From contig OZ037905.1 of the NCBI GenBank assembly GCA_964035575.1, forward strand, positions 25,001-89,000: DNA of 64,000 nucleotides, in the 5' to 3' direction. A program made the translations under genes and the position numbers. Below are positions 16,119 through 55,402 of the stretch, piece by piece. The notes under the pieces were generated by a model. That model saw only the letters and a program-made list of their open reading frames with translations. It had not been told where the DNA came from and did not search any database. Source of the stretch: Rhynchopus sp. YZ270_cl-10. Taxonomy: Eukaryota > Euglenozoa > Diplonemea > Diplonemida > Diplonemidae. The stretch's first letter is position 1; each line of letters opens with the position of its first letter.

Positions 16119-18926
16119 TTTGGTGCGTAGACAAAGGCCCTGGGTGGCATAGGGTATGAGCGAACAAAGGGTAAAGAGGTACAGATATCAGGTTATAACA
16201 TTAGTCATGAGGAGACGAACAACAACAAAAAAAAAAGTGTTGATTAAAGAGTTAAGGCAATCAGACTCGTTGAATGCGTCAGTGTAGTGCGCGTGCAGCC
16301 TAGGACATTTAGGAGCATCACAGACCTGCTATTGGCTCGCTCTTCCGCTAAAAAAACGCACGCAGTCCCCTTAAGAAGTGGATTCCCTGTTTCAATTTGG
16401 TCCGAAGACCGCATTGCCTAAAATATCGCTAAAAAAACGCACCGTAGAGTAACCGCAGAAGGAAGAAGGAAGAAGAAAGGTGAATTGATCCACGATTGCA
16501 AAAATAAATATGACCCTTTTTTTGTAAAAGAATAAGCACGGGAAGCCAGAGAGGTGACAAGAAATCGTCTGATAAAAAAATGGGGAGGAGATAAACGCCC
16601 GCGTGTGGCTGTTTTATTTTTGCGGCGTCGAATCAAAACGAAAAAAAAAAGACAACGGGTTTCACAACTATAGCAATCTCCACCCAGGGTGGGGGGTGCG
16701 TTCACAGAAGGCACATCACTTCCCTGAGAGTGGCAGAGAGACAAAAGAGGAACCCGGGGCTTTTTTATTGACCCCAGGGGGAGTTTTTTTTCTTCAAAAA
16801 AATGTGTCATGGGAGGGAAAGACCTTTCAGGCAAAAATGAGTTATTTCTCTTTTCTTTCTGTAGTACTGCAATAGAGGTTGGCGTCCCAAAAACAAGGTT
16901 TGCGGACCGTTCCTTTTGTCGCCAAACATATTTGGAGTACTGGATTTCGGAAGACAATGTCGTAAGTTTGTTTGTTTTCATTTCAAACTTTTGCGAAATA
17001 TAAAATCGAAAAATAAAAAAATCGACATGTCATTGTGTATGTAGTCACTGCAAGCAAGCAAGGAAAGGAAAGATGTAAGATAGGAAAACTGTTTGCCCTC
17101 AGAGGCAAATCAATTTTAAAACAGAAAAGACAGCAAACACTAATGGGCAAAAAAAAAAGGGGGGGGAATAAAAAAAAAACGAGAGCGGGGACGAAGTAGC
17201 TCTCTCACAAAAAACCAAGTCAACAAACACAAAAAAAACGTCTCCGCTTAGCAACCTGATAATAGCAAACACGACACTCAGAAGAAATAGGTTTTGTAAG
17301 ATGAACATAAGCCTCTTGCTTAGTCACCCCCCAGGAAAAAAAAAATTCTCTCCTATTTGAACGGCATCCGAAAGCCCGTACTTCTGCTTCCAAACTAGGT
17401 GACGAGAAGAACAGAAGAAGTGAGCCACTCATACACTCTTGTTGCCGATCTGATGGGGAGAGGGGGAAAGAGGGTGCCTTCACGGATGAATGAGCCTTAT
17501 GTGCACACACATCTGAAAAGGTGGAAAACGCCGCTTGCAGACGTAAGACTTAAAGTAATCCAAAAAAAAAAACAAAGAAAAGTTTATAAGATGATCCTTA
17601 GCCTCTCATGCTTAGCCACCTGAAAACAAATGGGGCATGTGCCTCTCAAATAAAGAGAAGACAGATGCTCTAAATAAAAGTTGAAAAAGGTAAAACATGC
17701 CTAAATCGTTGATTAAAATATTTGAGAAGCAATGTTGGGTGATCCATGATCATTTCCGTGAGAACACGCAACAGGCTGAGAGCCTGTGAGACGCTACTGA
17801 GAGCTGAGTGAAACATTCTCTCCCGTTCATAGGTTCACCCAAATGTCCCTGAAGGAAACATTTTTTTATATTTGCCCCTGAAATCAGCCAAATGCGTTCT
17901 CCTGGTGGGCGAGAACCATTTTTTGTGTGAATTTGAATATTTTCTCATAAAACCGTTTTCTCTCCGTGACACATATTCGAGACAAAAGATATAACAAGAA
18001 ACCATAGTACCTAACATTCGCCAACGAACCTCTCAGGCAAACACTTACCAAAGGAAAGAGATGAGTGTAAAGATGCTTGGCCCGTTTGGCGAAAGGTGTG
18101 AAAAAAAGGACGTAAATCCTTTTGGGAAAACACGGACTGAAGAGTCTGACGTGCGGTATTTTTTTTTTAGTTTCTTGAAATTTTCTGAAAAAATTGGTTT
18201 TATATTGTAGACATCCGAGGATGAGTTCCACCATTTCTTTATTTCTTTGCTGGCAGCCTGCATAGACAGCAGTACCTAAGATAGGTTCAGCACTCATGGA
18301 GTGGGGGCAGTTATCTGTGCTTGAGAGAAGGAGAGAGAGAGAGAAAAAAAAATGCTGTGAGATAGTGTAGTGTTCACCTCTGTGTGTGTGTGCAAATCTT
18401 CCGAAACTTCTCATCTTCCGTTCCGCTTAGACGGAAAACTTGAAAGGGTATAAATAGGTCTTGGATCGAGGAAAACTCCCCCCGAATTGAGACAAAAAAG
18501 AAGAAGATTCTTAGAGGAAAAAAAAAAGACGTTCACAAAAAAAAAATGGTTTTCGTTACTATCGATACTGGATACTCACTTTTATAGGTGAATAAAAAAA
18601 TGTTGAAAAAAAAAACTTTTTGTTTTTCCTTTTGGTGTGATCATGCCCCAGTATTCCATGCACTATTAGAGTGCCTCCATGTTGACCTAATTGGGGAATG
18701 TCACACCATTTTTTTTTTTTTTTTTGGCACAGTTTTTCGTGTGTCTGCGTTTTTTTAATTGCAAAAAATCCAAACATAACTAAAAAAACCCAGCAAATGC
18801 AAAGCAAGTCAAACAAAAAATCCAAAAGGGCACCTGATCAAACATAAACAGACGCACGCACAAAGAACAAAAATTCAGAGACAAAAAAAAAAATTTTTTT
18901 TTTAAAAAATGAACCACCCTCCTTTT
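16119..18926. other. Gene-poor spacer with short hairpin repeats
   Basis: No gene can be supported. Long apparent frames here are low-complexity and lack family motifs. The spacer holds hairpins of the ACGAGAG-loop family at 17298-17328, 17485-17514 and 17588-17621, and a copy of the TTGGTT..TGTAG repeat at 18192-18234. Confidence 0.5.
17588..17621 (-). ncRNA. Small hairpin, ACGAGAG-loop family type A
   Basis: On the minus strand the arms AGGTGGCTAAGC and GCTAAGGATCATCTT pair, with G-U wobbles at two outer positions and a two-base bulge. The loop is ATGAGAG. A second copy lies at 17298-17328. Whether it is transcribed as an independent RNA, acts in a transcript, or is just a repeat is unknown. 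Confidence 0.45.
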
Positions 18927-19682
18927 TTATCCACGGCTGGACGGCATCACTACCTCTGCTACGGATGGGTCGTCCAGGCACCAGATGGGGTATGCTGTCG
19001 AGGTGATCCCATGGATGGCCTGGGGGAAGCAGTGCACCACTGCACGGGTCATGACGTCTTGGAACTCGCAGGAGAGCGAGCCTTCGCCGTTGCTGTATTT
19101 GAGGGAGATCTGGATGATGACACCCTTCGAAGGGTCGTACGGGACGATGCCTGCGTCCTCGTCTCCGTAGATGCAGAGGTACGTGCTGGAGGACGTGCGT
19201 GTCAACCCTGTGATGTGCCAGATGTGGTTGCGGTTGTTCCTGCAGTGCTCGTTGAGGCCGATGTTAGGGTTGCACGTCACCCCAAAGTCGATGCGTGGTG
19301 AGCCTTTGATCAGGACTGCCCACGTCGAGTTCTCGCCCGCATGGATCGGTGGGTGCAGCACTGCGACGGCGTAGTCGGGACGCTGGCGTACAAGGCGGAA
19401 CTGCATCCCGCCGTTGTCGATCTCCGCAGCCTCGCCGCACTGCACAAAACGAAACGGCGCAATCGTCTCCGCAAAGAGCACGTCCTCGTTCGCAATGCTT
19501 GTGTCGCAGATCAGGTCCTGCGCATCGAGCTCCTCGTCGTTCAGCAGAAGACGTATCAAGTGTGGGTCAATGCTCATCGCGCGTGCCGCGTTCAGCTTGA
19601 TGTCCTCCACAGTGCCGTCCAAACTGACCTCCACAAAGTGGACAGAACCCTTCGTGTCCTTCACATACAGGTTCATGCTCAT
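18927..19682 (-). CDS. Ubiquitin-like plus SPRY-like protein
   Basis: A 251-residue protein. Residues 1-72 resemble a ubiquitin-like domain and share the segment LICDTSIANED with LRICDTEMDEG of the WD40 paralogs. The rest looks like a SPRY/B30.2-type beta sandwich: a core STWAVLIKGSPRIDFGVT, GVIIQISLKYSNGEG, and an ending with AYPIWCL. SPRY domains usually bind proteins, so a Ubl coupled to a recognition domain repeats the plan of the WD40 family with another scaffold. The start at 19682 is 4 bases after a strong Py-AG (19687-19716). Assignment of the second domain rests on pattern only. Confidence 0.6.
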   Translation of the reverse strand: MSMNLYVKDTKGSVHFVEVSLDGTVEDIKLNAARAMSIDPHLIRLLLNDEELDAQDLICDTSIANEDVLFAETIAPFRFVQCGEAAEIDNGGMQFRLVRQRPDYAVAVLHPPIHAGENSTWAVLIKGSPRIDFGVTCNPNIGLNEHCRNNRNHIWHITGLTRTSSSTYLCIYGDEDAGIVPYDPSKGVIIQISLKYSNGEGSLSCEFQDVMTRAVVHCFPQAIHGITSTAYPIWCLDDPSVAEVVMPSSRG

Positions 19683-19686
19683 TGCT

Positions 19687-19716
19687 CTAGGGAAGAGAAG
19701 GAGGGGAGGGAGGAGG
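19687..19716 (-). promoter_or_regulatory. Pyrimidine tract and AG acceptor at the start of the Ubl-SPRY gene
   Basis: Minus strand reads CCTCCCTCCCCTCCTTCTC then TTCCCTAG, four bases before the first ATG. This is a typical 3' splice site. Since no coding exon lies upstream, it is best explained as a trans-splice acceptor or the end of a 5'UTR intron. Confidence 0.6.
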
Positions 19717-19718
19717 TT

Positions 19719-21869
19719 AAATGTGTGAAAAACTCACGCTCCTGTATGGTAAATTTTTGAGGGGAAAAAAAACACACACACACACGAAAATAGAGCACCC
19801 TTTGCCCTTCATTGCATTAGGGGAAGGCAGAGGAAACTCTCCTCCAAAACTACGTTGCCTACAGCGAGTTCGTGGTGACGGCGGAAAAAACTCAGGAAAA
19901 GAATAGAGATGTTGTTTTTCTTCATCAGCAGAGGGGACACTACGAGACACAAACGGGCACATGAAGAAGCACCCCGAAGACGTTCCACAACAGAGCCTCC
20001 CTTGCAGACGCACAAAGAGGGAAGTGATCCCATCAAAAGTGGTCCAGAAAGCCAGAAGCGGTTCGTCATTGAAGGTGCCTGCTAGATATGCCCGCTAAGC
20101 GTACGCAGTGCCCGAGCTGGATAGGTTTAGCATGGATATGTATGTCATCATTGTTTTGCAAGCGGAACGTTGCATTCGCATTAATAATTTATGCAACCCA
20201 AAAGACAAAAAAAAACCCCTTTCGTGACAGCATAGTGTACCTTTGCGTGAGCAGAACTAGAGGGGTAGGGGAATGATACATATGACATGCCCTCCGCCCG
20301 CTTCCTCTCATCAGTCAGATGAACGGGGATCATGGAGACAAGGTAATGTAGGTTCCGTTCCGTCTGGAGTCCTCTCGTTTCGCTGTGTGGGAGAGGCGTG
20401 GAGCGAATCCCTGAGTCGCTCATCCGGGAGGGACAAGGAACATTGGTAATGGTTTTGAGTGGGGGGGGTTTGGAGCAAGAGAAAAAAAACGGATGGTTTT
20501 GTTTTACTACACAAAAAAAGGCACAAAAAAAGAGAGCGAACACTTGTTGAAAAAAAAAAAACCAGCCACAACTGGCAGACATAGAAGAAGAAAAATTTCG
20601 ATGTAAAGTATGAAGCAAAACGAGAGGACTCCTGGTCCGCAAGGTAACAGAAAAAAAATGGCGACGGTTATTGCCTTCGAAAGGTACACACGACTGTGAA
20701 GCAAAATGACTTGACCATGAAACCACACTGCAAATCATTTACTTAACCATCGTATGAACCACTGCGGGAAGGGGGTGAATGGCATAATTACTGTTGACAG
20801 TATTGTTACCACATGGTTTTCAGGTTCAGGTGAGAAAGCAACTTGGGAGAGCAAAACAGTGGGTGTGCATTTTTTCATAATATTATGCAGACCCACTGTT
20901 TGCTCTCCCCCTTGCTCCTCCCATCTAGATCTGACAACCGCGCAGATTTAAAAAAAGAAAACAAATTTGGGAAGATAGGCAAGTCCTAACGGCACCAATC
21001 TTTTTAAGGTGATGCAAAGGGGAGGCATCCTTGCAGAAAAGCAGCATCCCTCTGTTGTCAGAAAGAGGATAAATAAGCTGGATTTTGCACAACAACTGAC
21101 ACTACTGTGTTCTGTTTTAATTTTTTTTTTTGAAAACTTGGTTGTATTAGTGTAGACACCCGAGGATGAACTCCACTATTTTTTTTGTGCAGACTCTAAT
21201 TTTTTTTTCACCTATTTCTGATGTGCTGTGAACATCGGGATCGTTCTCTGCAAAAAAATAAAAAATAAAAATTAAATTCGTATTGCTTTCAGGAGAACAG
21301 AAAGTATTGTTTTTGGGGGTACACATGCGCCCATTCTTTGAGATGAAAGATGCTTCACATACTTTTTGAAAGATATACTTTCGAGGTACTAAAAAATGCA
21401 CCCAAATAAAAAAGGAGGGAGGGGAAGTAAAAGGGGTGGTGCTAGCTGACCAAGGAAACCTCAATAAGAAGAAAACAGCGTTTTTCGAGTTACTTCAGCC
21501 TCAGAGACCTTCTTCACACAGCTACATCTGTTGGGGAAAAGATAACAGACCCTCCCTAAATGGAACAGGGGACATATTTTCTTGTGGAATATTTGGTTTT
21601 TTTTTTGTTCTTTTTTTCTTGTTTTTATATTATTGCTCCAAACTCAGGCCGGTCCTAATGCGGCTCCGTAAATAGAAGCGATGCACAAGCGCATAAGAAA
21701 ATCTATTTTTTTTTTCGACTGTTTTCATTTTTGCTTGTTTGCTTTACCTTTTTTTTAATACTTTTTCTCCTGCCCTCCACCTTTACTCTGAGCATAAATC
21801 TGGACGACAGGAGACATTTTGTTCTTTTTTACCCCACTTCTTTCTATCGTAAAACCTCTCTCTTCCTCC
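19719..21869. other. Spacer with hairpins, no gene
   Basis: No gene is supported. Notable are a near-perfect 65-base hairpin at 20845-20909 and a copy of the gaaaacttggttgtattag repeat at 21131-21180. Confidence 0.5.
20845..20909. repeat. Near-perfect inverted repeat
   Basis: The arm gggagagcaaaacagtgggt is mirrored by acccactgtttgctctccc with one unpaired base; the loop is AT-rich. It lies alone between the Ubl-SPRY and dehydrogenase genes. It may be a miniature element or a transcript hairpin. Confidence 0.65.
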
Positions 21870-23414: not shown

Positions 23415-23773
23415 GGTTACGCTTTTTTATTATTTTTTCTGTAGAAGAAGTGAGTTGAGAGAGAAAGGTTGTGAGGTGAGAGGACTACTTAAAGTTAAAG
23501 TGTGCTTTTGTTGTTTTTGAGGTCTTTTTTCACAGGAAGTTTTTTTTTTTTTGAGAAACTTTCCAAAAAAAAAAAAACAATTTTGAATAGACAAACACAT
23601 GGGAGGGGAAGTGGGGGAATAAGCGAAGATCATCACGGATAGTTTTTTGTTTACTTTTTTTTAAAAAAATTTGTCGTGATTCCTGCGAATGAACTGTGTC
23701 TGGGGGATAGGTCAGCAACGCATGCTGAATGTGTGTATTCATGGAATATGGGAAGGGGAAAAAGAAAGTTTGT

Positions 23774-23804
23774 AAGATGACTATGCCTCGTGTGCACACA
23801 TCTT
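23774..23804 (-). ncRNA. Small hairpin, ACGAGAG-loop family type C
   Basis: Minus strand: AAGATG pairs with CATCTT, and GTGC pairs with GCAT (one G-U), enclosing the loop ACACGAG. Related copies are at 34275-34304, 35194-35221 and 38656-38687. It lies upstream of the dehydrogenase gene. Confidence 0.45.
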
Positions 23805-24690: not shown

Positions 24691-25780
24691 CTGGGTACAC
24701 CTGGGTGGACTCCAGATATCATCCCAACCATAACAGTACCTCAATGGGAAAGCCTAACCTTGGAACTTTTTTAAAATAGCATTTTTTTTTCACACCCCTA
24801 CTTTGCACATTGTCGGTGCAACAAAAATTCGGGCCTGTTGTTTTTTTTTTTTTTGCTTTTCTTTATTTTCTTACTCGGGGATTTACCCCCCAACGGAAAA
24901 GTGGGAAGGGTTATTTTTTTTTCGACACCAATTATGGTTTAAGGTCGTTCGTTCCTTTTTTTTGTGTGTTTTCCCTCCACCCCTCTCTCTACCACCTATC
25001 TACGATCCTCTAGTTGAATGATTTCGCGAGGATTAGAATGTAAAAATAGAGTGGAGAGAGAAAAAATTTGACTCGAAATACAAAAAAAAAAGCCCTCTCG
25101 TGAACAGCAAACTTATCCTTGGTACATGACCTCGGGTACACCAGGTGGACAACCATCCAGTCCAGAAAAAAAAGGGGGGGTGAGACGGCATGGGGGAAAA
25201 ACTGTGTGTTGTGCACTTTCTTTTAAAGTGTTGTGTCGCCCCTCCCAAAAAAAAAACAACAAAATTACAGACAAACACTGTTTGGTTGCAAAAGCTTTCT
25301 GTTCGTCAGCTTCGTCTCTGTTTGTAAAGACAGAGGTGGGTCTTTTCCAGAAAGGGAAAAAAAGCGTCGAAAACAGTAGGGGGGGTTACACAAAAATTAA
25401 CAAAAAAAAATTTGAAAATCTGACAAGGGGAGGGGGTAACCATTTGTTTTGAAGGGGAAAAAAAACACTTTTTTGGTTGAACTAGTGGGACCAGAGGTCC
25501 TCCGCTAGTGGTTGCTTAGGTTTTGTTTTTGTTTTTGTTTTTGTTTTGTTTTTTGTTTTTCGTTTTCGGGTGTTCGTTCAAACCTAACCGCCGCCATCGC
25601 CCCCAAAAAAGCACCATTCAAAAAAAAAAAATTCCAGAAAGCACAGTGAAGCACAATGCATTTGTGGTGTGCCGACCCCTAAAAAAGAAAAGGAAAATGA
25701 AAATATTGACCTAATAATGTCACCTTGAAGATGACCTAAGGCCTCGCTTCGTCACCTTTTGGAAAAAAAAAATAGTTTAT

Positions 25781-25816
25781 AAGATGATCCTAAGTCTCTC
25801 GTTGCTTAGCTACCTT
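25781..25816 (-). ncRNA. Small hairpin, ACGAGAG-loop family type A
   Basis: Minus strand arms AAGGTAGCTAAG and CTTAGGATCATCTT pair around AACGAGAG, with one mismatch and a two-base bulge. A second, tighter copy at 25728-25758 has AAGGTGAC pairing with GTCATCTT through one G-U. Confidence 0.45.
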
Positions 25817-26511
25817 TTAAAAAATGCTGCCTATAGTACATTCACGACGGATAATTATTTTTCAGAGCCTGTTTGGGGACCCCTTTTGGAAATATTCTTT
25901 TCCCTTTTAACGTGTACACAAATTGGAGGGTGGGGAAACAGAGTGTGGAAGGGGGGGAGGAAGAGTTTTTGAAAGATCAACAATTTGTTCTTTAAAATTA
26001 CTTTTTTTTTTTGATAAATTGTTGGAGAACTACTCTGCGCAAATCTCCACTTTTTTAGGTCTCGCAAAAAATAAAAATAAAAATCAATAGTTTTGTAAGA
26101 TAAAACCTAAGCCACTCTGTGCTTAGTTCTTTGCTTGAAAAAGTCTTTGGGGCATGCGACTAAAAACCCTTCCACTCCCTGACACATCCCAAAAAATTTT
26201 GAGACAAAAAACGCCCCCTACCCCCCCCATCACATCACAGTATATTTACAAGAACGATCTGTTTCCTTTCATGATAGCGTGAATTATCTGTATGGTTTTG
26301 TGGTGTTTTGTGGTATGTCCAGAAAAATTTACTTCAACAATAATCGCTTGTGTTTTGTGTTGACCACAATTTGGCGCACTGAGCTTCACGTAGTAGTCAC
26401 CTCCGAACCTTTAAAAAACAGACTAATGAACAGAATGCGAATGCATAATGCTGATCCCCAAAGCCTGCTGCTGATCACAGAGATTTGAGATAAAGCACTG
26501 TTTTTCCATAC

Positions 26512-28128
26512 CGCGAACGAGCACTGAAGGTTTTCATCGATGTTCATGATCGCAGCGTCGTTGTCGAACTCAGCGCAATAGCTGGGGGCTGAGAACAGCG
26601 TCACCAGTTGTCTGTCTGCGAAGAACTCGTACCCTCGTTCCATCACCTGTGTGGTGTGTTTTATGTGGGGTTGAAAAGGGCGCCCCACTGCATACCTGAT
26701 GCGCACGAATGATGAGGTCCATGTCCATCAAGTTCAGGAACCGTGTCACTTCGTTCTGCCCAAAGAGGTACGACACACCTCGGTCCGATTCGTGCCAGCC
26801 CTGTTAGGTGGTATTGTGGTTTTGTGGTCTTTTTGTGTTATTTATTAGAAAAGTTTATAAGAACCCAGGCCTCTCACGCTTAGTCACCTCAAATTGATCA
26901 CATTCGAGTTATCGCACAGCATCAGCACGGGATTGCACCGTACTGTGCACAACGATCCTATTTCCCCCTCTCTCTCTCTCTCTTCTTGACCACATACCTC
27001 GATATCGAACTCAGGGTCTGCCCACAAGAGATCGCAGAGAAGCCCTTGGTCGGGCACCTCTGTTGGGCGTGTGATGTCGCGGATGTGCCTCAGGTCGCTA
27101 AGGTCGGGCGAGATGCCGCCGTGCATGCAAAGGATCTTCTCGCCGATGGTGGCTGCTGCTGGCAGACAGTTGAAGACGTCTGTGAAGCCCTTCCAGAGCT
27201 TCACGTTGTAGCGTCTCTTGCAGTCGTCGTAGAAGCCGTACATACGGTTGATCGCAGCGCTCTCGTGGTTCCCGCGCAGCAAAAAGAAGTTTTCGGGGTA
27301 CTTCATTTTGTAGCAGAAGAGCAGACAGATGACCTCCATCGAGTGCTTTCCTCTGTCCACGTAGTCGCCTAAGAACAGATAATTTGCGTCCGGCGGAAAC
27401 CCGCCCCTATCAAACAAACGCAGCAGGTCGTAGTACTGCCCGTGGATGTCCCCCGCCACCTTGATCGGCCCGTCCAGCTCAAGAAGTGTCGGCTGTGACA
27501 TGAGGATCTCGCGCGTCTTGGTGTGGATGTATTTGATCTCGTCCTCCTTGAGAAGCACCAACACCTGCTTGCCTTGCTTGTTCCGCACGGCAAGCAGCTT
27601 CTGGATGATCTGGTCGGTTTTGTCAACAGGTGGCGCTCGCACCTCCTCCTTCTTTGCGGTTGTCGTCATTGGTGCGGTTGGGAGCGCTTTGCTGCTCCTA
27701 CGTGCTGTTTGTCCTGGGCTTGTGCCGCTTGGGGCTGGTGCACCAGAGTTTGTCCCTGCGGGCGGTGCCGTTTTCTTCAAGGTGCCGTTCGAGGGACGCT
27801 GTGGGAGGCCCTTTTGCGAGGTCGACTTGGGTGGGGAGGGGTCGTGTGCGGGTTCTGCGTTCTGTGCAGGTTGCGGCTCCGGTGCCTTAGTGGCGGGTGT
27901 GGCTGATGTGGGTGTGGGGTTCGCAGAAGGAGGGAGTGCGCCCGAGTTGGCGGACTTCGCTGCTGGCGAAGCGTTTGCAGGCTTCGGCTTTTCTGCCAGG
28001 GTGTTGGTGTTGGTGTTGTCCTCCTTGTTGTCGAGGATGGCTCCCTTCGAGTTGACGGGGCTTTTCGCTGATGAGTTGAGACGACTGTCACTGTTCAGTG
28101 AAGGTTTTGTGCTGGTCACCTCTGCCAT
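26512..28128 (-). CDS. PP1/PPZ-type serine/threonine phosphatase (3' exon unresolved)
   Basis: Three exons are clear: 28128-26998, 26800-26696 and 26646-26512, all joined in phase 0 (377+35+45 codons). Donors are GTATGT, GTATGC and GTATGG. The catalytic core has GDIHGQ, GDYVDRG, GNHE, MHGG and LFSAPSYC, so the metal and phosphate ligands are present. It reads most like PP1. About 190 residues of Ser/Thr/Pro/Ala-rich sequence precede the core, as in the PPZ branch. The fourth exon after CSFA is not certain; short endings are possible at several acceptors in 26200-26460. It dephosphorylates Ser/Thr in proteins; the long N-terminus is probably regulatory. Intron 1 contains a degenerate hairpin repeat at 26859-26889. 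Confidence 0.88.
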
Positions 28129-28691
28129 GAAAATAGTGTCCTTAGACTGAACAGAACATTTGGTTCGTAGTGCCTGGGCGAGTGGGTGTGGTGTTTTGGA
28201 AATATGGAAAATAAGGTATTTCAACACACGCCATTCAATTGAGAGCATAGGAATAGGGATCCAAAAATGTAACAATAAAAAGAAGAAAAAAAGAAAATGC
28301 TTTTATTTAGAGAAATGTCTCAAAGAAATGAAGAGAGAAAAAACCAGTTGAAAGAGCTGAACGAACCTACCCAAGGCACGTATCAATAAAGAAGAAATAC
28401 CACAAAAATCGGACCAAAAAAATGTTGGCTGAACAGCAGAGGGACAACAGTACTTTTAGGGAGAAGAATCAAACAAAGAACCCGAACAAAAAAATGGCCG
28501 AGCTATTTTCATTATTTATCCATTTTTCTCCCCTACTCTAAGGCCACGCTTTTCCACTGTACCCACCCTACCCCTAGCCCCCCCAAAGCTCCACACTCCT
28601 TCCTAAACTTTCCATTGCACCACATTCCGGATTACGGAAACCCAATGCAAAAAACAACCAAAAAATCGCACCAAAAAAAAAGTTAGATATT

Positions 28692-31300: not shown

Positions 31301-31363
31301 AACAAAAACAAAACTATCAAATGTGCCTCGCGGAGAAAAAAGAAAAAAAGAAAAAAGAAAAGT

Positions 31364-31398
31364 AAGATGAACTAAAGCCTCACGTTGCTTAGTCACCT
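31364..31398 (-). ncRNA. Small hairpin, ACGAGAG-loop family type A
   Basis: Minus strand: AGGTGA pairs with TCATCT (one G-U) and CTAAGC with GCTTTAG (one bulged base) around AACGTGAG. Confidence 0.4.
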
Positions 31399-32353
31399 GA
31401 CAAAAAAAATGCGGGCGCACTTCGGCACGCGCCTGTAAGGGATGCCCTGATTGATCTTCCCAGTAAAGCGAATGCTGCCTGAGTTAAAAAATAAATACAA
31501 TATGGCTGAGATGACAGCAAAAAATAAAGGTTTCTTTAGTCTGAAAGAAAACTTCAAAAAAGCTAAATAGTAATGTACTTTCCATTCTAAGAAGAGAAAA
31601 GCACACAAAAAAAGAAAAGGACGTTCAAGAACGATACATCCCAAAAAAAAAGAAAAATACAACTCTTCCTTTTTTGCATTTTGCAAAAAAGAATAGTGAA
31701 TCATACATGGTAGTCTCAGACAAGGCCTACTCTGCACCTGAATTTTCTGGACTTTTTCTTGACTTTCAGAAGTCATAAAAAAGTCAAAAAAAAGTCAAAA
31801 AAAAAAAAATCCGTTTCTTGAATTTCCAGGCTTTAAAAAGTCAAGAAAAAGTCAAAAATTGGGTGTCTTGAGTCTGACACAGTCGGCCAGACCACCATGT
31901 ATGGAATGTGGAATAAAAACTCAGAAAACTACTCTATTATAACTAGACTATAGCTGGAAATTGTTATGATTTTTTTAATTATTTTTTTTCGTTCGTAACG
32001 ACGTTATCCTTAAAAACTGCAAGTTGGTTTAACGGCAGTATTTGGTTCGAAAACTTGGTTGTGACAATGAGGAACCTGAAAGATACACTCGCTGTTCAAA
32101 ACTTAAAATGATTTTGCCATTATTTTTTTTTCTGTTGGACGGAATCACGAAAAGGGAGAGAAGTCGTGAAAAACATTTCGATCAGGGTACTAACATCTAA
32201 ACGCTTCACAAAAAAAAAAAAGGGCGAAAAGGTGGGCATGTGGAGACACGGTGCTCACCTTGAAGAGTGGTCAGAAAAAAGAAAAGAAAAGTTTGTAAGA
32301 TGAACCTAAGCCTCACAAAGTGTCAAGTCGCTTACAAAGAAGATGCAGTTTAT

Positions 32354-32388
32354 AAGATGATCCTAAGCCTCTCGTGTTTAGTCAACTT
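32354..32388 (-). ncRNA. Small hairpin, ACGAGAG-loop family type A
   Basis: Minus strand: AAGTTGACTAAAC and GCTTAGGATCATCTT around ACGAGAG; one U-U and one A-C mismatch, same two-base bulge as its relatives. A degenerate neighbour lies at 32294-32335. Confidence 0.4.
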
Positions 32389-34309
32389 TGAACTGCTGAA
32401 CAAAAAAATAAAGATAAATTAACAACAATAACAACAACAACAACAAAAAATGACGCGCATGAGAAAAACGCTGACAAATGGTATCCGTATGGAAACCGTC
32501 CACGTAGTTATCAAGGTTAATGTTAATAAGGACCTGATCTTTTGTCTAAAGGAAGGGTGGGTGGGATAAAGGGAAAAGTGGAGATCTCGGTGAGTGGAGG
32601 GGAAATGAATGTGCCTCACGTACACAGACACACACAGTTTGGGGACATATTCTGCAAGAATTACCCCATATTGTTATCAAAACACAGCTACAAGACGATA
32701 AATGTAATTTTTTTTTCAATACAAAGGACAAAGAAAAGGTTTTGTGAGATGAACGGAAAGCAGTGCATATTGCTTTTGTGTCACCAAAAAAACAGTGTTA
32801 CGCGAACATTGTGTAGAGGACACATTTGTTCGTCAACTCTTCGACTCAAAAAAAATGTGGGAAACAAGAAATTAATAAAAATGGATTTTTTCTAAAAACA
32901 TCACAAAAATATGAAAAGACAAGAAAGACGCGTTTTGTCCAGACTGCATTGGTCTGACAAACGAAAGGGAGCAACAAAATAAAGAAGAAGAAAAAACAGC
33001 CCCATGCAGATCGGCCAGCTTCTCATATCTTTTCTTTTGTTTTTTGTTTGTTTGTTTTTTTTTTTTTTGAAAACTTGGTTGTATTAGTGTAGCCACTCTA
33101 GAGTTGTGCTCCACTATTTTTAGATAATCTGTTTAGTTTAGTGCAGCTGCAACAGAAACAAATCCTGAACTATATTTTTTTTTACTACGTGTACGCTCTC
33201 CAATGTCAGTTGTGACATTCACGAACGTGCACTTGAATGTAACACTGAAAATGAATTACAGTGCCTTCAATGCTGCTGCTAAGTCGGGTGGCATAAAAGT
33301 CATGCTCAAAAAAAACTACAGTGTACTTCGCCTGAATAAGAAAGGCGTGAAATGTTAAATTTAGGGTTTTCTTTTGAGTATTTTCTAAAAAAATGTACTT
33401 TCTTTTCTTATCGAAAAAGAAGGCAAAACAAAGTTTGAGAAATAGTTGGCAAATATGCCTATCTAAGGCCTGTCGCGCTTGAGTCGCCTTAAAAGAAAGG
33501 GGGGAAATGGCAGCAACCCTGGTTGCTGTGAACTCATGTATTTTGCCACAAATTTGACATTTTACTTTTTTTGGTAATTTAAGCGAAAATTCAAGAGTGG
33601 CAGCATTCAGCAGGGTTTATGATCGCTAAAAACAAAAAAATGAATTTTTTTTTTTCAATCGAAATACTTTTTCGAGCATCTGTTATTATTTTTGATGGTT
33701 CTCCGTTGGGTTGCTTTTGGTTTCAATCCCCCTCTTCCGTTCACAGTACCTTCAACCCTCATATTGCGATGTTATTTCGCAAGAAACAGGGACATTTTTT
33801 TTTTAGGTAAAGTCCTCGAAGATGCTTTGATCCTTGTAGAGAAACGCAAAAAAACCGCAAAAAACAACCACAAAAGTTTACCAAACAAAAAGTGAATATT
33901 TTTTTTTTTTGAAAATTTCAAGAAAAATTAAAAAGGCTAAAAATAACTAAAAATAACTAACTGAAACTACTGTGTCATGGTGATGGTTGGAAAGGGGAGC
34001 GGGGAGGGGTAAGAAATACAAAAAGAAGAAGATAAACAACATGTTGCTTTTGAGGTGTTAGTTTTGTTTGCTGTTAGTAAAAGTAGGTAGGAGGTGCAAC
34101 GGTTGTTTAATAAAAAAATTATAGGAATTTTTTAGGTTTTTTTTTTTGTGACAAAGTCTCAAGAAATACCCAACCCAGCCTCTCGGAAGGGGGGGGGGCA
34201 GAAAGCAAGATAAAAAAATGCTTAGAAAAGGGCAAAAAAAGCAAAATGTTAGAACTAAAGAGAAAATTTGAAAAGATGAAAGTGCCTCTCGTGCACAGAC
34301 ATACTTTAT

Positions 34310-38642: not shown

Positions 38643-38655
38643 AGAAGGATTTGTA

Positions 38656-38687: not shown

Positions 38688-39957
38688 TTAAACGGAAAAA
38701 AGAAACCGCATTTGAACACAGAGCACCGCAACGTCCCTAAAGGACCCACAGCCATGCGAAACACTCATGTACACATGTCAGTTTGTCATCTCTCAAAAAA
38801 ATGGCTTGAAAAAAATAAAATACAAAGCCCTCCTCGTTAGCAGTGTACCTTAAAAGACTGGGCTTAGTTTGCGCGCTAGATTTTGGTGTAAAAATAAAAG
38901 GCTTGTAAGATGATCCGTGGACTTTCTCTTGTGTTTCGTCACCTAATCAAAAAAATCATGAACAAGAAAGAGTGAAGGTCGCTCACCCTACCAAAGGACA
39001 CCAGGGGTGATTCCGTTGTTCATGTTCATGTGACACTGAAAAGCGCTGCCGCAGTCCATTCAACCAAATAATTTGAAAAACAACAAAAAAACATGATGTG
39101 AAACGGTACAGTAAGATAGATAAACCTAAAGCCTCACCTCAGTGCTTAGTCATCTCAATACATATTTTTTTCTTCAAAAAATAAGAGGGGTCCCTGTGCA
39201 AATGAAAAGAAAAAGAAAGAAATGAGGGTTTTTTTGAACAATTCTGCAGTTTTTTGTTAAATTTTCGTTTTTATCGCGTATTTCACTTCATGTCTTCAAT
39301 ACAACAGAGCAAGAAAAGAGAAAGGCTGCTATCAAAACTGCCGCCAATACCAATACGAACCAGCAAGAGTGTTGATAAACATCGCTCGCGGTGGACGCAC
39401 ATAAAAAATATGCGGCATTTTAGTATTCCAACAAAAAAAAAAGTGTTTGGAATTATGAATCTCTCTCAGTACACAGCTTTGAGGGGGGAATAAGAAGTCT
39501 TTGTAAGATCCTGAGCCTCTCATGCTTTGTCACATTTAAAACTGGTGGTCGTAAAGTGCAACGACTCTTGTGGACGAAGGCACCATCTTTCAAAAGAAAA
39601 GACGTTAACAACACAACAAATGTATGAAACGGGACGAGAAATAAGAAGAACAGATGACTAAAGACGCACCTAAACACCTCTTCTACGTGCTTAGTTGGCT
39701 AAGAACAAAAGAAATGAGCCATAGTCATGATAGTGGTACCTTTGGCTGGAATGTGATGTGTCACGTAATGTGTACTTATTTTCCTGGGCTGTAATGGGGC
39801 ACTGAAAAGTATTTGTTGCAATTTTGTGGAGTAGAGGGGGGTAACGAATTTGCAGAATTCAAAAAAAAAATTGTTCAAAAAAAACACACATTATCACATT
39901 CATCTAATACTCTTGCGCCCTTTTCGGACCAATTTTTCAAAAAAAAAATCCCCTTTT

Positions 39958-40956: not shown

Positions 40957-41023
40957 TAAAAAGAAAAGTTAAAAGTGCAAACACGGCAGCTCCCCCGGCT
41001 GCGCCACACACTCCTTCCCGCTG

Positions 41024-41319: not shown

Positions 41320-42396
41320 TCAAGACAAGCGTGAGATGTCAACAATCTCAACCCCATCATTCATTCCGTGTATCACCACACCACCACAGCTGCTGATCGC
41401 AAGACCGCAAGAAGAGTTGTCCTCAAATTCACGACACAACAGTCGTTTCCCTGTTGAGATGGACCACGCGCACAATGTAATGGAGGAGTAGGCAGCAACA
41501 ACGTCGTTCGACACAGCAACATCAGTCCAGAAGCTTTCTGAGACGTCTTCAAATGCACATTCACCTGTTTCGATGTTCCAGACACGCACACCTTTGTTGC
41601 AACACGCTGCAATAAAACGCTGGTTTGGTGACAGTGACACATAAGTAACATTCTCAGGGCATGTAAGAACAAGCACCTCCACCCCTGTAGTGTAGTTCCA
41701 GATGGTAACCCTGCAGCTGTCACACATCGCCACCTTGTAACCTGTCACAACCACGGCGGACCCGCCAATGTGGCTCCATTCATGCACAAGAACGCCTGTT
41801 GCAATGTCCCACACCTGCAAACCCTTGTTCGTGCACCACGACAACAGCTTTGTTCCACAGGGTGACCATGCCGTGGTACGCCCCCAATCACCTGCACCTC
41901 CAAAGGAGTGCTTCAATGCACCTGTCTTCACGTGACGAACATGAACACACTTCGTGCCCTTGCTGACACATGAGATCCACTCACTGCAAGCTGAGAATGC
42001 CGCGAAACAATTCAACGATGCAGGAAAGCTGCACAGACACTTATGTGTTTCCGTGTCGAAGACGAATAGAAACTTCTCATGGCACATCACTGCAAGGTAC
42101 CTGTCACACGGGGAGAGCGTAAGCGAGAATGTGCTATTCGAACGTGGTATCAGCCCAGGAGTGATGTTGGCACCAGTGCAGTACAGCTCAACGGCACATC
42201 CCTCATCCATCTCCGTGTCGCAGATGCGCAAGTCGTCGTTGCCGATGTCGCCACCGCCTCTCATCCGCACACCAACATGCCGAGCATGTGGCACGCCAAG
42301 CTCCGCAACAAGCTTCCCCTTCACCTGTGCAAGGGTGGCGCTCCTGTCCACTTCTATCACACAGCTTGCAGACTCGAAGTGTCCTGTGATGTCCAT
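41320..42396 (-). CDS. Ubiquitin-like plus WD40 protein, paralog 5
   Basis: A 358-residue member that opens the second half of the array. Blade two reads VHVRHVKTG instead of AEVHDVKTG and blade four is shortened (GGSAVVVTGYKVAMCDSCRV), both shared with paralog 6. Unique are MCHEKFLFVFD, FSACSEW and the ending VDISRLS. The Ubl region differs little from the first cluster 30 kb away. The start is the common MDITG; the CCCCACAG site is 21 bases upstream. Confidence 0.85.
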   Translation of the reverse strand: MDITGHFESASCVIEVDRSATLAQVKGKLVAELGVPHARHVGVRMRGGGDIGNDDLRICDTEMDEGCAVELYCTGANITPGLIPRSNSTFSLTLSPCDRYLAVMCHEKFLFVFDTETHKCLCSFPASLNCFAAFSACSEWISCVSKGTKCVHVRHVKTGALKHSFGGAGDWGRTTAWSPCGTKLLSWCTNKGLQVWDIATGVLVHEWSHIGGSAVVVTGYKVAMCDSCRVTIWNYTTGVEVLVLTCPENVTYVSLSPNQRFIAACCNKGVRVWNIETGECAFEDVSESFWTDVAVSNDVVAAYSSITLCAWSISTGKRLLCREFEDNSSCGLAISSCGGVVIHGMNDGVEIVDISRLS

Positions 42397-42744
42397 GTTC
42401 AGGGGGTGTAACTCTGTTCTGTGGGGACAGGTGTGTGGGGAGGGCAGGAAGAAGAGGGGTGGGGTGGTGTTTGTGAAGGAAACGAGATGTGTTGTCATTT
42501 GCAAAAACAAGAGAGATAACTCCTCGCCCAGTGAGAGGTCCTCCCACCTTCCCACACCATGACGGGTAGTTGTGCTTCGTGTGCAAAAGCCACAGCGGAA
42601 CGGCGCGGTCTCCATTGCCAACCCACTCCCACAACGAGAGACGTGTGCATCTATCTTCACGTACCTTCCTGCGTGGAGTTACCCAGGCAAGGTGCAGGAA
42701 AGGGAAGCAAAGTTAGATGGCACCTTTCATTTGTGGAAATGGGT

Positions 42745-43815
42745 TCAAGACAGGTGTGAGATGTCAACAATCTCAACCCCATCATTCATTCCGTGCATCA
42801 CCACACCACCACAGCTGCTGATCGCAAGACCGCAAGAATCGCAGGTATCAAAGTCACGACACAACAATTGTTCTCCTGTTGAGATGGACCACACGCACAA
42901 TGTAATGGATGAGTAGGCAGCAACAATGTCGTTCGACACAGCAACATCAGTCCAGAAGCTTTCTGAGACGTCTTCAAATGCACATTCACCTGTTTCGTCG
43001 ATGTTCCAGACACGCACACCTTTGTTGCAACACGCTGCAATGAAACGCTGGTTTGGCGACAGTGACACATAAGTAACATTATCAGGGCATGTAAGAACAA
43101 GCACCTCCACCCCTGTAGTGTAGTTCCAGATGGTAACCCTGCAGCTGTCACACATCGCCACCTTGTAACCTGTCACAACCACGGCGGACCCGCCAATGTG
43201 GCTCCATTCATGCACAAGAACGCCTGTTGCAATGTCCCACACCTGCAAACCCTTGTTCTCGCACGACAACAGCTTTGTTCCACAGGGTGACCATGCCGTG
43301 GTACGCCCCCAATCACCTTCATCTCCAAAGGAGTGCTTCAATGCACCTGTCTTCACGTGACGAACATGAACACACTTCGTGCCCTTGCTGACACATGAGA
43401 TCCACTCACTGCAAGGTGAGAATGCTGCGAAACAATTCAACGATGCAGGAAAGATGCACAGACACTCATGTGTTTCCGTGTCGAAGATGGACACATTATT
43501 CGCGCTACACATCATAGCAAGGTACCTGTCACATGGGGAGAGTGTGAGCGAGTATGACATCTCCTCCGAAGGTATCACCCCAGGAGAGATGTTGGCACCA
43601 GTGCAGTACAGCTCAACGGCACATCCCTCATCCATCTCCGTGTCGCAGATGCGCAAGTTGCCGATGTCGCCACCGCCTCTCATCCGCACACCAACATGCC
43701 GAGCACGTGGCACGCCAAGCTCCGCAACAAGCTTCCCCTTCACCTGTGCAAGGGTGGCGCTCCTGTCCACTTCTATCACACAGCTTGCAGACTCGAAGTG
43801 TCCTGTGATGTCCAT
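42745..43815 (-). CDS. Ubiquitin-like plus WD40 protein, paralog 6
   Basis: A 356-residue member very close to paralog 5 across blades two to six. It lacks six bases at about 43658, removing two Asp from the Ubl loop (GNLRICD instead of GNDDLRICD), and has one extra Asp before ETGECAF. The ending VDISHLS is intact. The spacer upstream (43980-44130) is duplicated upstream of paralog 8 (49510-49650). Confidence 0.85.
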   Translation of the reverse strand: MDITGHFESASCVIEVDRSATLAQVKGKLVAELGVPRARHVGVRMRGGGDIGNLRICDTEMDEGCAVELYCTGANISPGVIPSEEMSYSLTLSPCDRYLAMMCSANNVSIFDTETHECLCIFPASLNCFAAFSPCSEWISCVSKGTKCVHVRHVKTGALKHSFGDEGDWGRTTAWSPCGTKLLSCENKGLQVWDIATGVLVHEWSHIGGSAVVVTGYKVAMCDSCRVTIWNYTTGVEVLVLTCPDNVTYVSLSPNQRFIAACCNKGVRVWNIDETGECAFEDVSESFWTDVAVSNDIVAAYSSITLCVWSISTGEQLLCRDFDTCDSCGLAISSCGGVVMHGMNDGVEIVDISHLS

Positions 43816-44295
43816 GTTCAGGGGTGTAACTTTGTTCTGTGGGGACAGGTGTGGTGTTGAGTGTGGAATGGAGACGCTACAGCGGCAGACGCAGGTACTG
43901 AAAAACACTGAAAAGTGTGACATAGACTTAAAGCAACGCACGAGAATGCGCGGCCCAGATGTGATGTCAGGTCAGCAAACAAGTGTTTTGGCTATGGGGT
44001 GGAAAAGAAGTTGTAAAATAAGACCTTGGGGAGGTGGGTTGTCGCTATTGTTACGCCCATTTTGTTTGCTAGAAACGGCATTGAACAGGAAACAAAATCA
44101 TGCTTTTCTTTTTTCGCGAGAGGAAAAATTCCCTTTTTGTTATACCACTGCACCCGCCGAACGGTCCAGTGCGTCCTGCTTGCTTGGGAAGCTTGGTATT
44201 CACGCTCTTTTTGTTCGTTGCATTATTAGTCTGTTTTATTAAAGCGGGTAGGGATAAGCCATTTGTACCCTTCTTTTCACGTTCTTTCTTTCCTA

Positions 44296-44515
44296 CCGAC
44301 CCTCCCCCGTGAAATTGTCCCCCCAAAAACCGGTAGTTTCAATAATTTTGCCGCCAGGGACAATTTCAAAGCAGGGGGGACAATTTCAAGGGAGTCGCAG
44401 GGACAACCTTCGCTCTCCCTTCTTCACACCAAAACGGCCATCCCCCTACAGTACGAGAAATTGTCCCCCCCTCACCTTTTCCCCCAGGGGGGACAATTTC
44501 ACGGGGGAGGGTCGG
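44296..44515. mobile_element. Small TA-flanked TIR element
   Basis: ccgaccctcccccgtgaaat at the left and its complement at the right, flanked by TA at 44294-44295 and 44516-44517. Internal gacaatttc repeats point in both directions. Only 220 bases long, no coding capacity. Confidence 0.7.
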
Positions 44516-44517
44516 TA

Positions 44518-45625
44518 CTTCAAAAACTCTCTTAAGTATTTGGTGTTGGTTGAGACGCACGAAACGGTCGGTTCTGTGGAATCACTGACCAAATAAACCA
44601 CTCATATCCTGTATCACATCGCTGATTCTTTCCCTGCGTTGACTGCAGGAAAGTTCGCGTAACATCGCGACCAGGAATGGGACTTATAAAACAACAATAA
44701 AAGAATAAAGGCAAATAACGCTAAGTCAATCGTAAACACAAAAGATCCGGGGGAGAAAATCATCCCCACGAAGGAAGAAAACGAGAAGTTGCGCACTGCA
44801 TGTAGGCATATCAGAGGTTGGTGTCGCAGTCGACTCGAAGTTGCACCACTCCCGATGAAACATTTGGTACAGACACAACACAGTCAAAAAAGCAAGAGGA
44901 TAAAAATATAATGATGAAATGCTAAAGATGGACACAGTGTACACAGTGTAGCCTACCGGAGGTTGCGTGTCGGGTTGTACCTGCACACACTACCAACAAC
45001 CTCCCGCGACCCAAGCACTGCTCACGATGCGACTTTTTAGTGCAGAAAAAACGCGATGCTGAACTTACACATGAAGGGGCTGCCATGCCCACGAGGTGGT
45101 GTGTCAAGCAACACAGCCCACTACCGTAAGAGACGACCATGGTGTAGTGGAATAGAAGTCGCACTACACCATGTGGGCACACCAAGAGTTGAGCGTCGGA
45201 TCGTACCTGCACACTGCCAACTCCCGTAGTCGACCAGAGTCGTACTACGACACGATGTGACTTCACAACAAAACACACACGAAACGATATTTGAACAAGA
45301 AAATCACATTCAAGAGTGGGATGGTGACATTTTGAAAACAAGAGATGAAAAGCAGAGAGTTAAAAAAGGAGAAGACCAGCAAATGCTCTGTGAAAAAGAT
45401 TTTTCTGTCAAGTGTTTTTGTGTTGGCGGAGAATAAAAAAAACAGTTTCCGATAAAAGGCTCCTGTATCAGTTTTGTCGATCAAAAAAACTGGCCATATT
45501 ATATACACCAGTTTACAGTTATCCGACACTACAATTATCCCACCCCGCACCCCTTTTAAACACAAGCAATTCTGCAGATTTTCTGCATCATAGTAAAAAG
45601 ACAGATTCAAGACAAGCGTGAGATG
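44518..45625. other. Spacer with inverted repeats
   Basis: No gene is supported. A 41-base hairpin (accatggtgtagtg against cactacaccatg) lies at about 45137-45180. Two related blocks (gtacctgcacac...ccaactccc) occur near 44980 and 45210. Confidence 0.4.
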
Positions 45626-46681
45626 TCAACAATCTCCATCATTCATTCCGTGCATCACCACACCACCACAGCTGCTGATCGCAAGACCGCTAGAAGAGTT
45701 GTCCTCAAAGTCACGACACAACAGTCGTTTCCCTGTTGAGATGGACCAAACGCACAAGGTCTCAGAAGAGTAGGCAGCAACAATGTCGTTCGACACAGCA
45801 ACATCAGTCCAGCAGCTTTCTGAGACGTCTTCAAATACACATTCACCTGTTTCGATGTTCCAGACATGCACACAATTGTTGCAACACGCTGCAATGAAAC
45901 GCTGGTTTGGTGACAGTGCCACATAATTAACATTCAAAGGGCATGTCAGAACAAGCACCTCCACCCCTGTCGTGTAGTTCCAGATGGTGATGCTTTTGCA
46001 GAAGCTGTATAACATCGCCACCTTGTCACCTGCCACAACCATGGCGGACCCACCAATGCGGCTCCATTCATGCACAAGAACGCCTGTTGCAATGTCCCAC
46101 ACCTGCAAACCCTTGTTCTTGCAGCACGACAACAGCTTTGTTCCACAGGGTGACCATGCCGTGGTCCACCTGCAATCACCTTCATCTCCAAAGGAGTGCT
46201 TCAATGCACCTGTCTTCACGTCATAAACTTCAGCACGGTTCATGTCCTTGTTGACACATGAGATCCACTCACTGCACGGTGAGAAGGATGGGAAACAATT
46301 CAACGATGCAGGAAAGCTGCACAGACGCTCATGTGTTTCGGTGTCGAAGATGGACAGAACCTTCTCATTCCACGTCACAGCAAGGTACCTGTCACATGGG
46401 GAGAGTGTGAGGTAACATGCCTCCGAATGTCGTATCACCCCAGGAGTGATGTTGGCACCAGTGCAGTACAGCTCAACGGCACATCCCTCATCCATCGCCG
46501 TGTCGCAGATGCGCAAGTCGTCGTTGCCGATGTCGCCACCGCCTCTCATCCGCACACCAACATGCCGAGCACGTGGCACGCCAAGCTCCGCAACAAGCTT
46601 CCCCTTCACCTGTGCAAGGGTGGCGCTCCTGTCCACTTCTATCACACAGCTTGCAGACTCGAAGTGTCCTGTGATGTCCAT
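45626..46681 (-). CDS. Ubiquitin-like plus WD40 protein, paralog 7 (shortened)
   Basis: A 351-residue member. Five bases are missing near 45640 relative to paralog 6, so the last strand is cut: the protein ends MNDGDC in place of VEIVDISHLS. Its middle is mixed: blade four resembles paralogs 5 and 6 in length (GGSAMVVAGDKVAML) while DEGDCRWTTAWSPC is shared with paralog 8. In the Ubl part, DTAMDEG replaces DTEMDEG. The loss is small but falls in the closing blade, as in paralog 2. Confidence 0.78.
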   Translation of the reverse strand: MDITGHFESASCVIEVDRSATLAQVKGKLVAELGVPRARHVGVRMRGGGDIGNDDLRICDTAMDEGCAVELYCTGANITPGVIRHSEACYLTLSPCDRYLAVTWNEKVLSIFDTETHERLCSFPASLNCFPSFSPCSEWISCVNKDMNRAEVYDVKTGALKHSFGDEGDCRWTTAWSPCGTKLLSCCKNKGLQVWDIATGVLVHEWSRIGGSAMVVAGDKVAMLYSFCKSITIWNYTTGVEVLVLTCPLNVNYVALSPNQRFIAACCNNCVHVWNIETGECVFEDVSESCWTDVAVSNDIVAAYSSETLCVWSISTGKRLLCRDFEDNSSSGLAISSCGGVVMHGMNDGDC

Positions 46682-54391: not shown

Positions 54392-54480
54392 CAGTCATCC
54401 AACAAAGGTTGGTGGGGTAAAAACCCACCAAATTTTTTTTGAGCCCCCAAATCCACCAATGTTATTACCCATGATGACTG
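54392..54480. mobile_element. Tiny TA-flanked TIR element (89 bases)
   Basis: cagtcatcc at the left and gatgactg at the right, flanked by TA on both sides. The CAGTC terminus is shared with the 618-1394 element. It has no coding capacity. Confidence 0.5.
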
Positions 54481-55020
54481 TAGATGGTAGTTGGCCGGAG
54501 TCGGCACGACTTTTTGGAAAATCAGAGAGTCGGCCCGACTCCGGCCGACTCTATAGGGAAAGCGGTTCTTTTTTTACTGTGGTAAAAAAAAAAAAGTGAA
54601 GTTGGTAGTGCAAACGCCTCTGGGACAGTAGGCACTGGAAAAAATCCCCCGCAGGTCTGTGGTAAGCACCCGGACAAATCTCAAAAAAAAAAGAGAAGTT
54701 GAAAGTGCCAAAAAAAAGTGTACGCACAAAAAAAAAATAATATGCAAGGGGGAGAGAAATCGAATTTTGTGGGGTTTCGCCACCCAAATCTGAGGAACAA
54801 TCCCAGCTTGTGGTGGGGGTTATCTTGAAACAGAAAAAAAAAAGGATCAACTTTTTGCAGCTTCTGAAATTTTTGCATTTCTATTTATTTTCTTTTGGCT
54901 GCAAAAGATACAAAAGGGATTTGTCAACTTTCAATACTTGCACGAAAAGACTTCACGGAATCCTTTTATATCTCTTGAAGACTTCTCTTCAATGACTCCA
55001 TTTTATTTTGTATTAAACTA

Positions 55021-55088
55021 TTTTTTGATAAATTGTTGGAGTTGTTTTGCCTCGGTTGCCTCGGCTGTGTTGCCACAGTTGTGCAATT
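55021..55088. repeat. gataaattrttggag repeat family
   Basis: ttttttgataaattgttgga, then gcctcgg and gtgttgccacagttgtgcaa, match 24092-24161 in the same orientation and 35122-35190 in reverse. GGAG and CTCC or TTGC and GCAA near the ends can pair in the longer copies. Confidence 0.5.
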
Positions 55089-55367
55089 CAAATTCAATTC
55101 AAAAAAAAAAGTGCATGTGCGTAAACTTGAGTTATACCACCCGTACCTACTTATGGCGGAAAAACAAGTAAAAAAAATCATTTATTTTTATCCCCAAAAG
55201 ACCCGAAAAACCCCCGAAAACCCGCGTCCTGAAGTGCATCATAACACTGTATGGGGGAGAGCTGGAAGCAAATGGGGGGAGGAAAGACGGTAAAACTCAT
55301 GACATCAGAAGAACACGTCTTTCATGTCCAGACGTATGAAACTCGTACAAAAGAAAGAAAAATTTAT

Positions 55368-55402
55368 AAGATGACTCTCAGCCTCTCGTGCTCAGTCACC
55401 TT
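55368..55402 (-). ncRNA. Small hairpin, ACGAGAG-loop family type A, in a 3' flank
   Basis: Minus strand: AAGGTGACT pairs with AGTCATCTT with a single G-U, then AGC-ACGAGAG-GCT. It lies 46 bases after the stop codon of the lectin-like membrane protein, so it is probably inside that transcript's 3' flank. Confidence 0.5.

Follow-up and report, generated by a model that had tools for sequence, protein, structure and literature searches.

Hairpins in the window and across the genome

The window analysed here is a stretch of 64,000 nucleotides (C73:25001-89000) from the 152.4-Mb assembly, in 126 contigs, of the diplonemid Rhynchopus sp. YZ270_cl-10, and our subject is the small hairpins that are scattered over it. 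A lipoyl synthase encoded in the window is 68% identical to that of Diplonema papillatum, the nearest named organism, and up to 79% to EukProt transcriptome entries, which places the host among the diplonemids. Codon usage gave 19 coding segments in the window, every one on the minus strand, and all hairpins found in it lie on that strand as well, in line with the minus-strand origin proposed in the first-pass annotation. The sequences were read at the 12 coordinates which that annotation had given, and its description was matched: one conserved loop, ACGAGAG, is common to two stem types, A and C. On the minus strand, type A reads AAGRTGA-CTAAGC-ACGAGAG-GCTTAG-GN-TCATCTT and is followed by ATAAACTTTTCTTT, and type C reads AAGATG-TGTGC-ACGAGAG-GCACA-TT-CATCTT and continues with WCAARC and a T-rich tail. 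In type C the outer stem is badly conserved: only part of the copies have it, and its third pair is present in 4 of 13. The hairpins are real, and their strand, loop and swapped stems are confirmed.

Using covariance models, eight of the nine type A sites noted before and all three type C sites were recovered. Seven of these eight and all three type C sites had been seeds of the models, together with copies at other loci, so that only the site at 31364 was recovered independently. On the minus strand, as are all features given below, type A tail hairpins were placed by the model at 17284-17330, 17574-17622, 25767-25816, 32340-32388 and 55354-55402, the last of which also includes upstream sequence of a long interspersed nuclear element (LINE) with its stop-codon context (ATAACGAATGTGAT). 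Two more, at 34296-34347 and 38593-38641, have A-U at stem position 4 and were placed by sequence and model. The non-seed site (31354-31399, E 8e-5) is a worn type A tail hairpin, and a worn hairpin at 25728-25758 was assigned to type A by eye only, the model giving no match there at E<=1. The models also added four type A-like copies at E<=0.01, all worn, namely a tail hairpin at 32283-32333 (E 0.003) and hairpins at 26083-26131 (E 0.007), 26845-26890 and 39491-39536 (E 0.0098). Type C tail hairpins lie at 23760-23804, 34259-34303 and 38641-38684, and one additional worn type C-like copy, in which part of the 3' arm is deleted, lies at 34752-34787 (E 5e-5). At 26845-26890, the TGA of the hairpin also terminates a Ser/Thr phosphatase open reading frame (ORF) at 26884-28275 (minus strand), and here a LINE tail seems to provide the end of a host gene.

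The hairpins are not confined to the window. In a 264-kb sample consisting of the window and 20 arbitrary 10-kb stretches, the type A model gave 34 matches at E<=0.01, of which 12 come from the window and 22 from the other 200 kb (31 on the minus and 3 on the plus strand), and the type C model gave 11 matches at E<=0.001 (4 and 7, respectively). From the 22 type A matches in 200 kb, a rough extrapolation leads to about 17,000 type A copies genome-wide, worn ones included. The exact 19-mer core of type A occurs 1910 times in the genome and a type C 27-mer 171 times, and the reversed control of each occurs 0 times. When a tail motif of 12 nt was searched with at most 2 mismatches, the minus strand gave 18 matches (not all of them hairpins) and the plus strand 5, compared with 0-3 in five Markov shuffles. 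Finally, ACGAGAG closed by a stem of at least 4 bp occurs 12 times in the 264 kb, at least two of these stem-loops looking unrelated and two being one tandem duplicate, compared with a mean of 0.97 for 140 permutations of its letters, the next best of which reached 5. As a separate observation, the DNA at L022:153-928 is duplicated in tandem with a 731-bp period and contains a type C hairpin.

Probable tails of LINE retrotransposons

Type A is very probably the 3' tail of the RNA of a LINE retrotransposon without long terminal repeats (non-LTR). When the copy at 55.4 kb was searched against the genome, 41 matches were found, and many of them reach the upstream edge of the query. Three of the fetched loci have about 1.45 kb in common at 99.9%; this stretch closes with the hairpin and tail, and the DNA beyond is unrelated. 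Other pairs of loci match over 159, 137, 100 and fewer bases. The common part of about 1.45 kb is coding, with its stop 10 nt before the hairpin. At one 8-kb locus (L029), the frame is a 1454-aa ORF2 with the domains RVT_1 (3e-24) and Exo_endo_phos (2e-13), and its best match among solved structures is LINE-1 ORF2. A 526-aa ORF without a Pfam match (L029:4564-6144, minus strand) directly precedes ORF2, in frame with it and separated from it by one stop. When the genome was searched with ORF2, at least 33 places were found, which is a lower bound as 32 of 688 candidates were scored: 18 full-length copies at 96-100%, 12 copies that are truncated at the 5' side and reach the C-terminus, and 3 other pieces. 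We examined the tails of 20 long copies (17 of the 18 full-length and 3 of the 12 truncated ones), and all 20 have the same order of ORF2 stop codon, 10 nt, hairpin and T-rich tail. Because the hairpin stands 10 nt past the stop and is followed by ATAAACTTTTCTTT or a near form of it, it makes up most of the 3' untranslated region (UTR). The element thus combines an ORF for a reverse transcriptase (RT) and an apurinic/apyrimidinic (AP)-type endonuclease with 5'-truncated copies that have a common 3' end, as non-LTR LINEs do. It also has what marks the stringent type of LINE tail, namely a 3' stem-loop in 20 of 20 long copies whose loop is constant across lineages and whose stem varies with pairing. 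The RT region of ORF2 has 97 relatives in a large protein database; those labelled with an organism are all from Diplonema papillatum except one frog entry, and the remaining ones are EukProt, ENA and metagenome entries. The closest named relatives are LINE-like proteins of D. papillatum, the best full-length alignment having 47% identity over 99% of the region, with other alignments at 34-50% over shorter or equal stretches.

Type C is very probably the tail of a LINE lineage that is sister to that of type A, because of the stretch that precedes the hairpin in some copies and because of one ORF end. Twenty sites with the 27-mer were fetched, and 19 were assessed, L113 having no upstream DNA. 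As judged by eye, five of the 19 (L102, L104, L111, L116 and L117) extend upstream with TAACGATA before the hairpin, which corresponds to TAACGAATATGAT in type A. In a longer type C copy (L120), a frame with one internal stop matches the end of ORF2 at 47% over 45 aa. A DNA search with a long type C copy gave no whole-length match but itself and no full-length LINE among the 40 of 914 candidates scored. A family with a 1747-aa RT ORF was considered as the parent of type C and was rejected, since its tail is a different hairpin. This third LINE family, family B, has after the stop of its RT ORF the hairpin TAGTGGAGCACACTCTAGGGTGGCTACACTA, followed by ATACAACCAAGTTTTC and an A-run (one copy read), and its loop differs from ACGAGAG. 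A family B 24-mer occurs 1392 times in the genome (control 0), and two worn copies lie in the window on the minus strand: a tail hairpin at 33085-33116, which starts at the hairpin base and stands in an A-rich tract, and another at 21148-21178. Among the outcomes that would refute its reading, the first-pass annotation had named copies that are the tails of one transposon family. The data show this outcome, with the difference that the tails come from two sister LINE lineages (A and C) and a third family rather than from one.

The stem exchange between the types is as first described: TAAGC/GCTTA in type A stands against TGTGC/GCACA in type C, and two inner pairs differ on both sides with pairing held (A-T to G-C and A-T to T-A). 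Within each type, covariation was not found. Among 20 distinct type A copies, none of the 13 pairs is altered on both sides, and 91.4% of the pair cells are paired compared with 91.5% in shuffles. The commonest pair fills 222 of the 257 pair cells; a one-sided change that leaves the pair intact is seen in 13 and a two-sided change in 0, and 22 are unpaired. Some of the last are alignment errors, as MAFFT misplaced the 5' arm in one or two rows (e.g., 34294-34344). Among 13 type C copies, one of 11 pairs is changed on both sides, which is not above shuffles. The scattered copies thus give no sign of a working RNA or of kept pairing.

The first-pass annotation had also argued from wobble pairs for an RNA of the gene strand. 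The A at stem position 4 which it reported at 34310 and 38607 is present, but it is a one-sided change. All 20 tails of long LINE copies have G·U at stem position 4; at inner pair 3, 14 of them have A-U and 6 have G·U. As these two positions pair only if the gene strand is the RNA, they support the strand argument at the level of the LINE; the argument holds for the long LINE copies and fails for the scattered ones. The RNA-level signal resides in the LINE lineages, in the alternation of A-U with G·U and in the double-sided changes between types A and C.

Hairpin-only copies, their sites and their orientation

Most of the copies examined consist of little more than the hairpin and its tail. 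The 5' starts were measured by alignment to the end of the LINE. Among 40 exact-core copies, which were picked from the first 100 places listed, lie on C1 to C4 and exclude cuts inside the hairpin, 23 start within 3 nt of the hairpin base and 32 within 7 nt. Starts within 3 nt were also seen in 17 of 20 best matches, which come from a query holding the hairpin alone, and in 25 of the 34 model matches in the 264 kb; the covariance model has its own start at that base and so is biased toward full hairpins, and its alignments may end early in worn copies. The base before TCATCTT differs among these copies. It is A in 20 of 20 recent LINE tails and G in the LINE-linked copies L003, L005, L006, L007 and L016, and in the 33 hairpin-only copies of the 40 exact-core ones it is T in 12, G in 11, A in 8 and C in 2, which suggests that several LINE lineages fed the hairpin-only pool. 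The hairpin unit of about 50 nt seems to be what gets reverse transcribed.

The flanks of the hairpin-only copies, before the hairpin and after the tail, are both T-rich and of pyrimidine character, and they resemble each other. For the 42 hairpin-only copies among 60 fetched, the flank match was 7.05 compared with 6.37 in shuffles (sd 0.18), and 0 of 200 shuffles were as high. Target-site duplications thus show up statistically, as short pyrimidine flanks; because the flanks are T-rich, clean single cases are lacking.

The orientation of the copies can be read against that of the genes. Diplonemids are described as being among the marine protist groups richest in species and as having long one-way gene arrays with spliced-leader trans-splicing (PMC10161547). 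According to 131 kinase-domain matches genome-wide, the left arms of the contigs are mostly minus-coding and the right arms plus-coding, and kinase neighbours up to 300 kb apart have the same direction in 58 of 58 cases. The contigs resemble two-armed chromosomes in which transcription runs outward from one switch in the middle, although some differ, for instance C2, which has more switches. Judging orientation only for copies within 300 kb of a kinase match, type A agrees with the gene direction in 34 of 34 copies (of 100 listed) and, in a second sample, in 14 of 14 (of 40). Agreement was found in 12 of 13 hairpin-only best matches (of 40), in 16 of 18 type C copies (of 40) and in 18 of 23 family B copies (of 75, taken from 100 listed places on C1-C5 with two on C5 omitted). 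A control RT family, consisting of the top 20 of 150 RVT_1 places, most with 1364-aa frames, disagrees in 5 and agrees in 2 of the 7 places judged, so the orientation rule is not general to retroelements here. The rule may come from transcription-coupled insertion or from loss of antisense copies.

Elsewhere in the window, WD40 beta-propeller proteins account for 5 of 10 ORFs scanned with Pfam and form two groups on the minus strand (3099-14079 and 41320-46681), representing a gene family expansion. Dense minus-strand repeats of the forms CCGCGAGCG(A/C)AGCGAGCGG and GTGTATATGTCCGGACC fill 35760-36430, a stretch with no called genes.

Proposed mechanism, alternatives and meaning

In the main reading, the ORF2 protein probably grips the hairpin, chiefly via the loop, and would nick the purine strand of a pyrimidine tract, anneal the tail and reverse transcribe, that is, act by target-primed reverse transcription (TPRT). 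A protein that reads the loop and a paired stem would let the stem drift with pairing held, which could give types A and C in sister lineages. The usual template would be a fragment of LINE RNA trimmed to the protein-held hairpin, leading mostly to insertions of about 50 nt, and the inserted hairpins would then decay neutrally. Going further, we propose, tentatively and at well short of even confidence, that the LINE enzyme acts mainly on the bare tail: LINE RNA would be trimmed by the host or by the element to the bound hairpin, and the resulting ribonucleoprotein with about 50 nt of RNA would be copied into transcribed chromatin along the direction of transcription. Coupling to the transcribed strand would give copies co-oriented genome-wide, and the unit may be the shortest retrotransposed one known.

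Several observations weigh against the main reading. First, the pile-up of 5' ends at the hairpin base exceeds what ordinary TPRT gives for most copies; random truncation would smear the ends instead of piling them up at the base, so ordinary TPRT is insufficient without trimming or a SINE-like step (SINE, short interspersed nuclear element). Second, the best single target repeat, of 10 nt (L012:6614-6662), is 3 nt off the hairpin base. Third, an intact type C LINE was not found in the genome searches, only decayed ORF ends. Fourth, the asymmetry of pyrimidine runs, considered as the sole cause of the orientation, proved insufficient: runs of at least 18 in the window number 27 on the gene strand and 4 on the opposite one, which is of help, yet family B, which sits in A-rich tracts, points the same way as the closest type A copy in 56 of 61 cases, and pyrimidine asymmetry alone therefore does not give a near-absolute orientation.

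The same pile-up can be read in another way, with the hairpin-only copies as a separate, SINE-like nonautonomous element of about 50 nt that is mobilised by the LINE enzyme. This is the main rival reading, although we regard it as doubtful. The clustered 5' starts fit it, and so does the 95-100% identity of the 40 best matches over 53-62 nt. However, the varied base before TCATCTT points to several sources rather than to one master, and hairpin-bounded starts are also seen, as judged by eye, in type C, where 14 of 19 sites have no LINE part, and in family B, where the hairpin base is the start of the copy at 7 of 10 distinct sites.

Most likely, the hairpins represent no new stable RNA class and no gene signals. 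A cis-acting RNA signal of the host, with a role in trans-splicing, 3' processing or mRNA stability and borrowed by the LINE, would explain why the hairpins are nearly always on the transcribed strand, why the tail looks by eye like a branch site with a polypyrimidine tract, and why the extrapolated copy number is so high. Nevertheless, we consider it very unlikely, since the copies decay without keeping pairs and none of the 16 model matches in the window lies in its gene-rich stretches at 1-17 kb and 40-55 kb. A signal near gene starts in particular was not supported, because the next downstream called gene is farther from the hairpins than from random intergenic positions (median 2.4 vs 1.15 kb, n=20). 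Even less probable is a stable small structural RNA family with its own transcription, toward which the first-pass annotation had leaned. In its favour, the loop is conserved and good copies fold well (-13.3 kcal/mol, z -2.3); the z-scores of the six stretches folded are -2.3, -2.1, -1.6, -0.6, -0.7 and -0.7, the last two, L123 and L102, having the 5' arm cut short. Against it, Rfam gave 0 gathering-score matches in the window, no covariation is seen within the families, and the hairpin forms the 3' end of a LINE. Short noncanonical diplonemid introns, whose median length can be 37 nt and whose paired ends are reported in Artemidia and Namystynia (PMC12621601), can practically be dismissed, as 0 of 45 model matches fall inside called coding segments (27% of the sample) and the sole ORF overlap is 7 nt at the stop codon of 26845-26890, an ORF end and not an interior.

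The reading as LINE tails can be compared with known systems. Mammalian LINE-1 shows 5' truncation and repeated target flanks, L2-type tails end in short repeats, and the trypanosomatid elements L1Tc/ingi have a structured Pr77 element, a ribozyme and promoter, at the 5' end. Like LINE-1, the diplonemid LINE combines an AP-type endonuclease and RT with 5' truncation and repeated flanks. Unlike LINE-1, type A ends in a hairpin and a T-rich tail with no poly(A) (20 of 20 tails); in contrast to type A, family B has an A-run after the hairpin. Like L1Tc/ingi, the diplonemid LINE is a euglenozoan non-LTR element with a structured RNA, which lies at the 3' end instead of the 5' end. The closest likeness is to zebrafish ZfL2-1 and ZfL2-2 and eel UnaL2, described as LINEs with an endonuclease, an RT and a 3' stem-loop (Hayashi 2014, PMC4176376). 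In the account given there of ZfL2-1 and ZfL2-2, a swapped stem with the loop kept still allows retrotransposition, at about half the rate in ZfL2-1, and a changed loop or an unpaired stem abolishes or sharply lowers it, while L1, of the relaxed type, requires only poly(A). The loop is thus decisive in these elements and the stem exchangeable if paired, and the diplonemid tails show the matching natural pattern; by analogy, they would work like the stringent kind. The first-pass statement that no described element has this form was therefore mistaken. Unlike in ZfL2 and UnaL2, the diplonemid 3' UTR consists almost wholly of the hairpin, the tail is rich in T, and hairpin-only copies form the majority of those examined.

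Our literature searches, which most subscription papers lay outside, gave no report on hairpins of diplonemid LINE tails. What is new, as far as these searches reach, is that such tails occur in this host group, that the 3' UTR is minimal, and that the copies are bounded by the hairpin and oriented as they are. The diplonemid LINE tails provide a natural record of a constant loop with exchanged stems, and the finding that copies of three tail families start at the hairpin base offers a testable case for an enzyme-protected hairpin as the template. In addition, the orientation rule ties LINE insertion to one-way gene arrays. It also follows as a caution that thousands of co-oriented hairpins between diplonemid genes can be transposon debris and not RNA genes.

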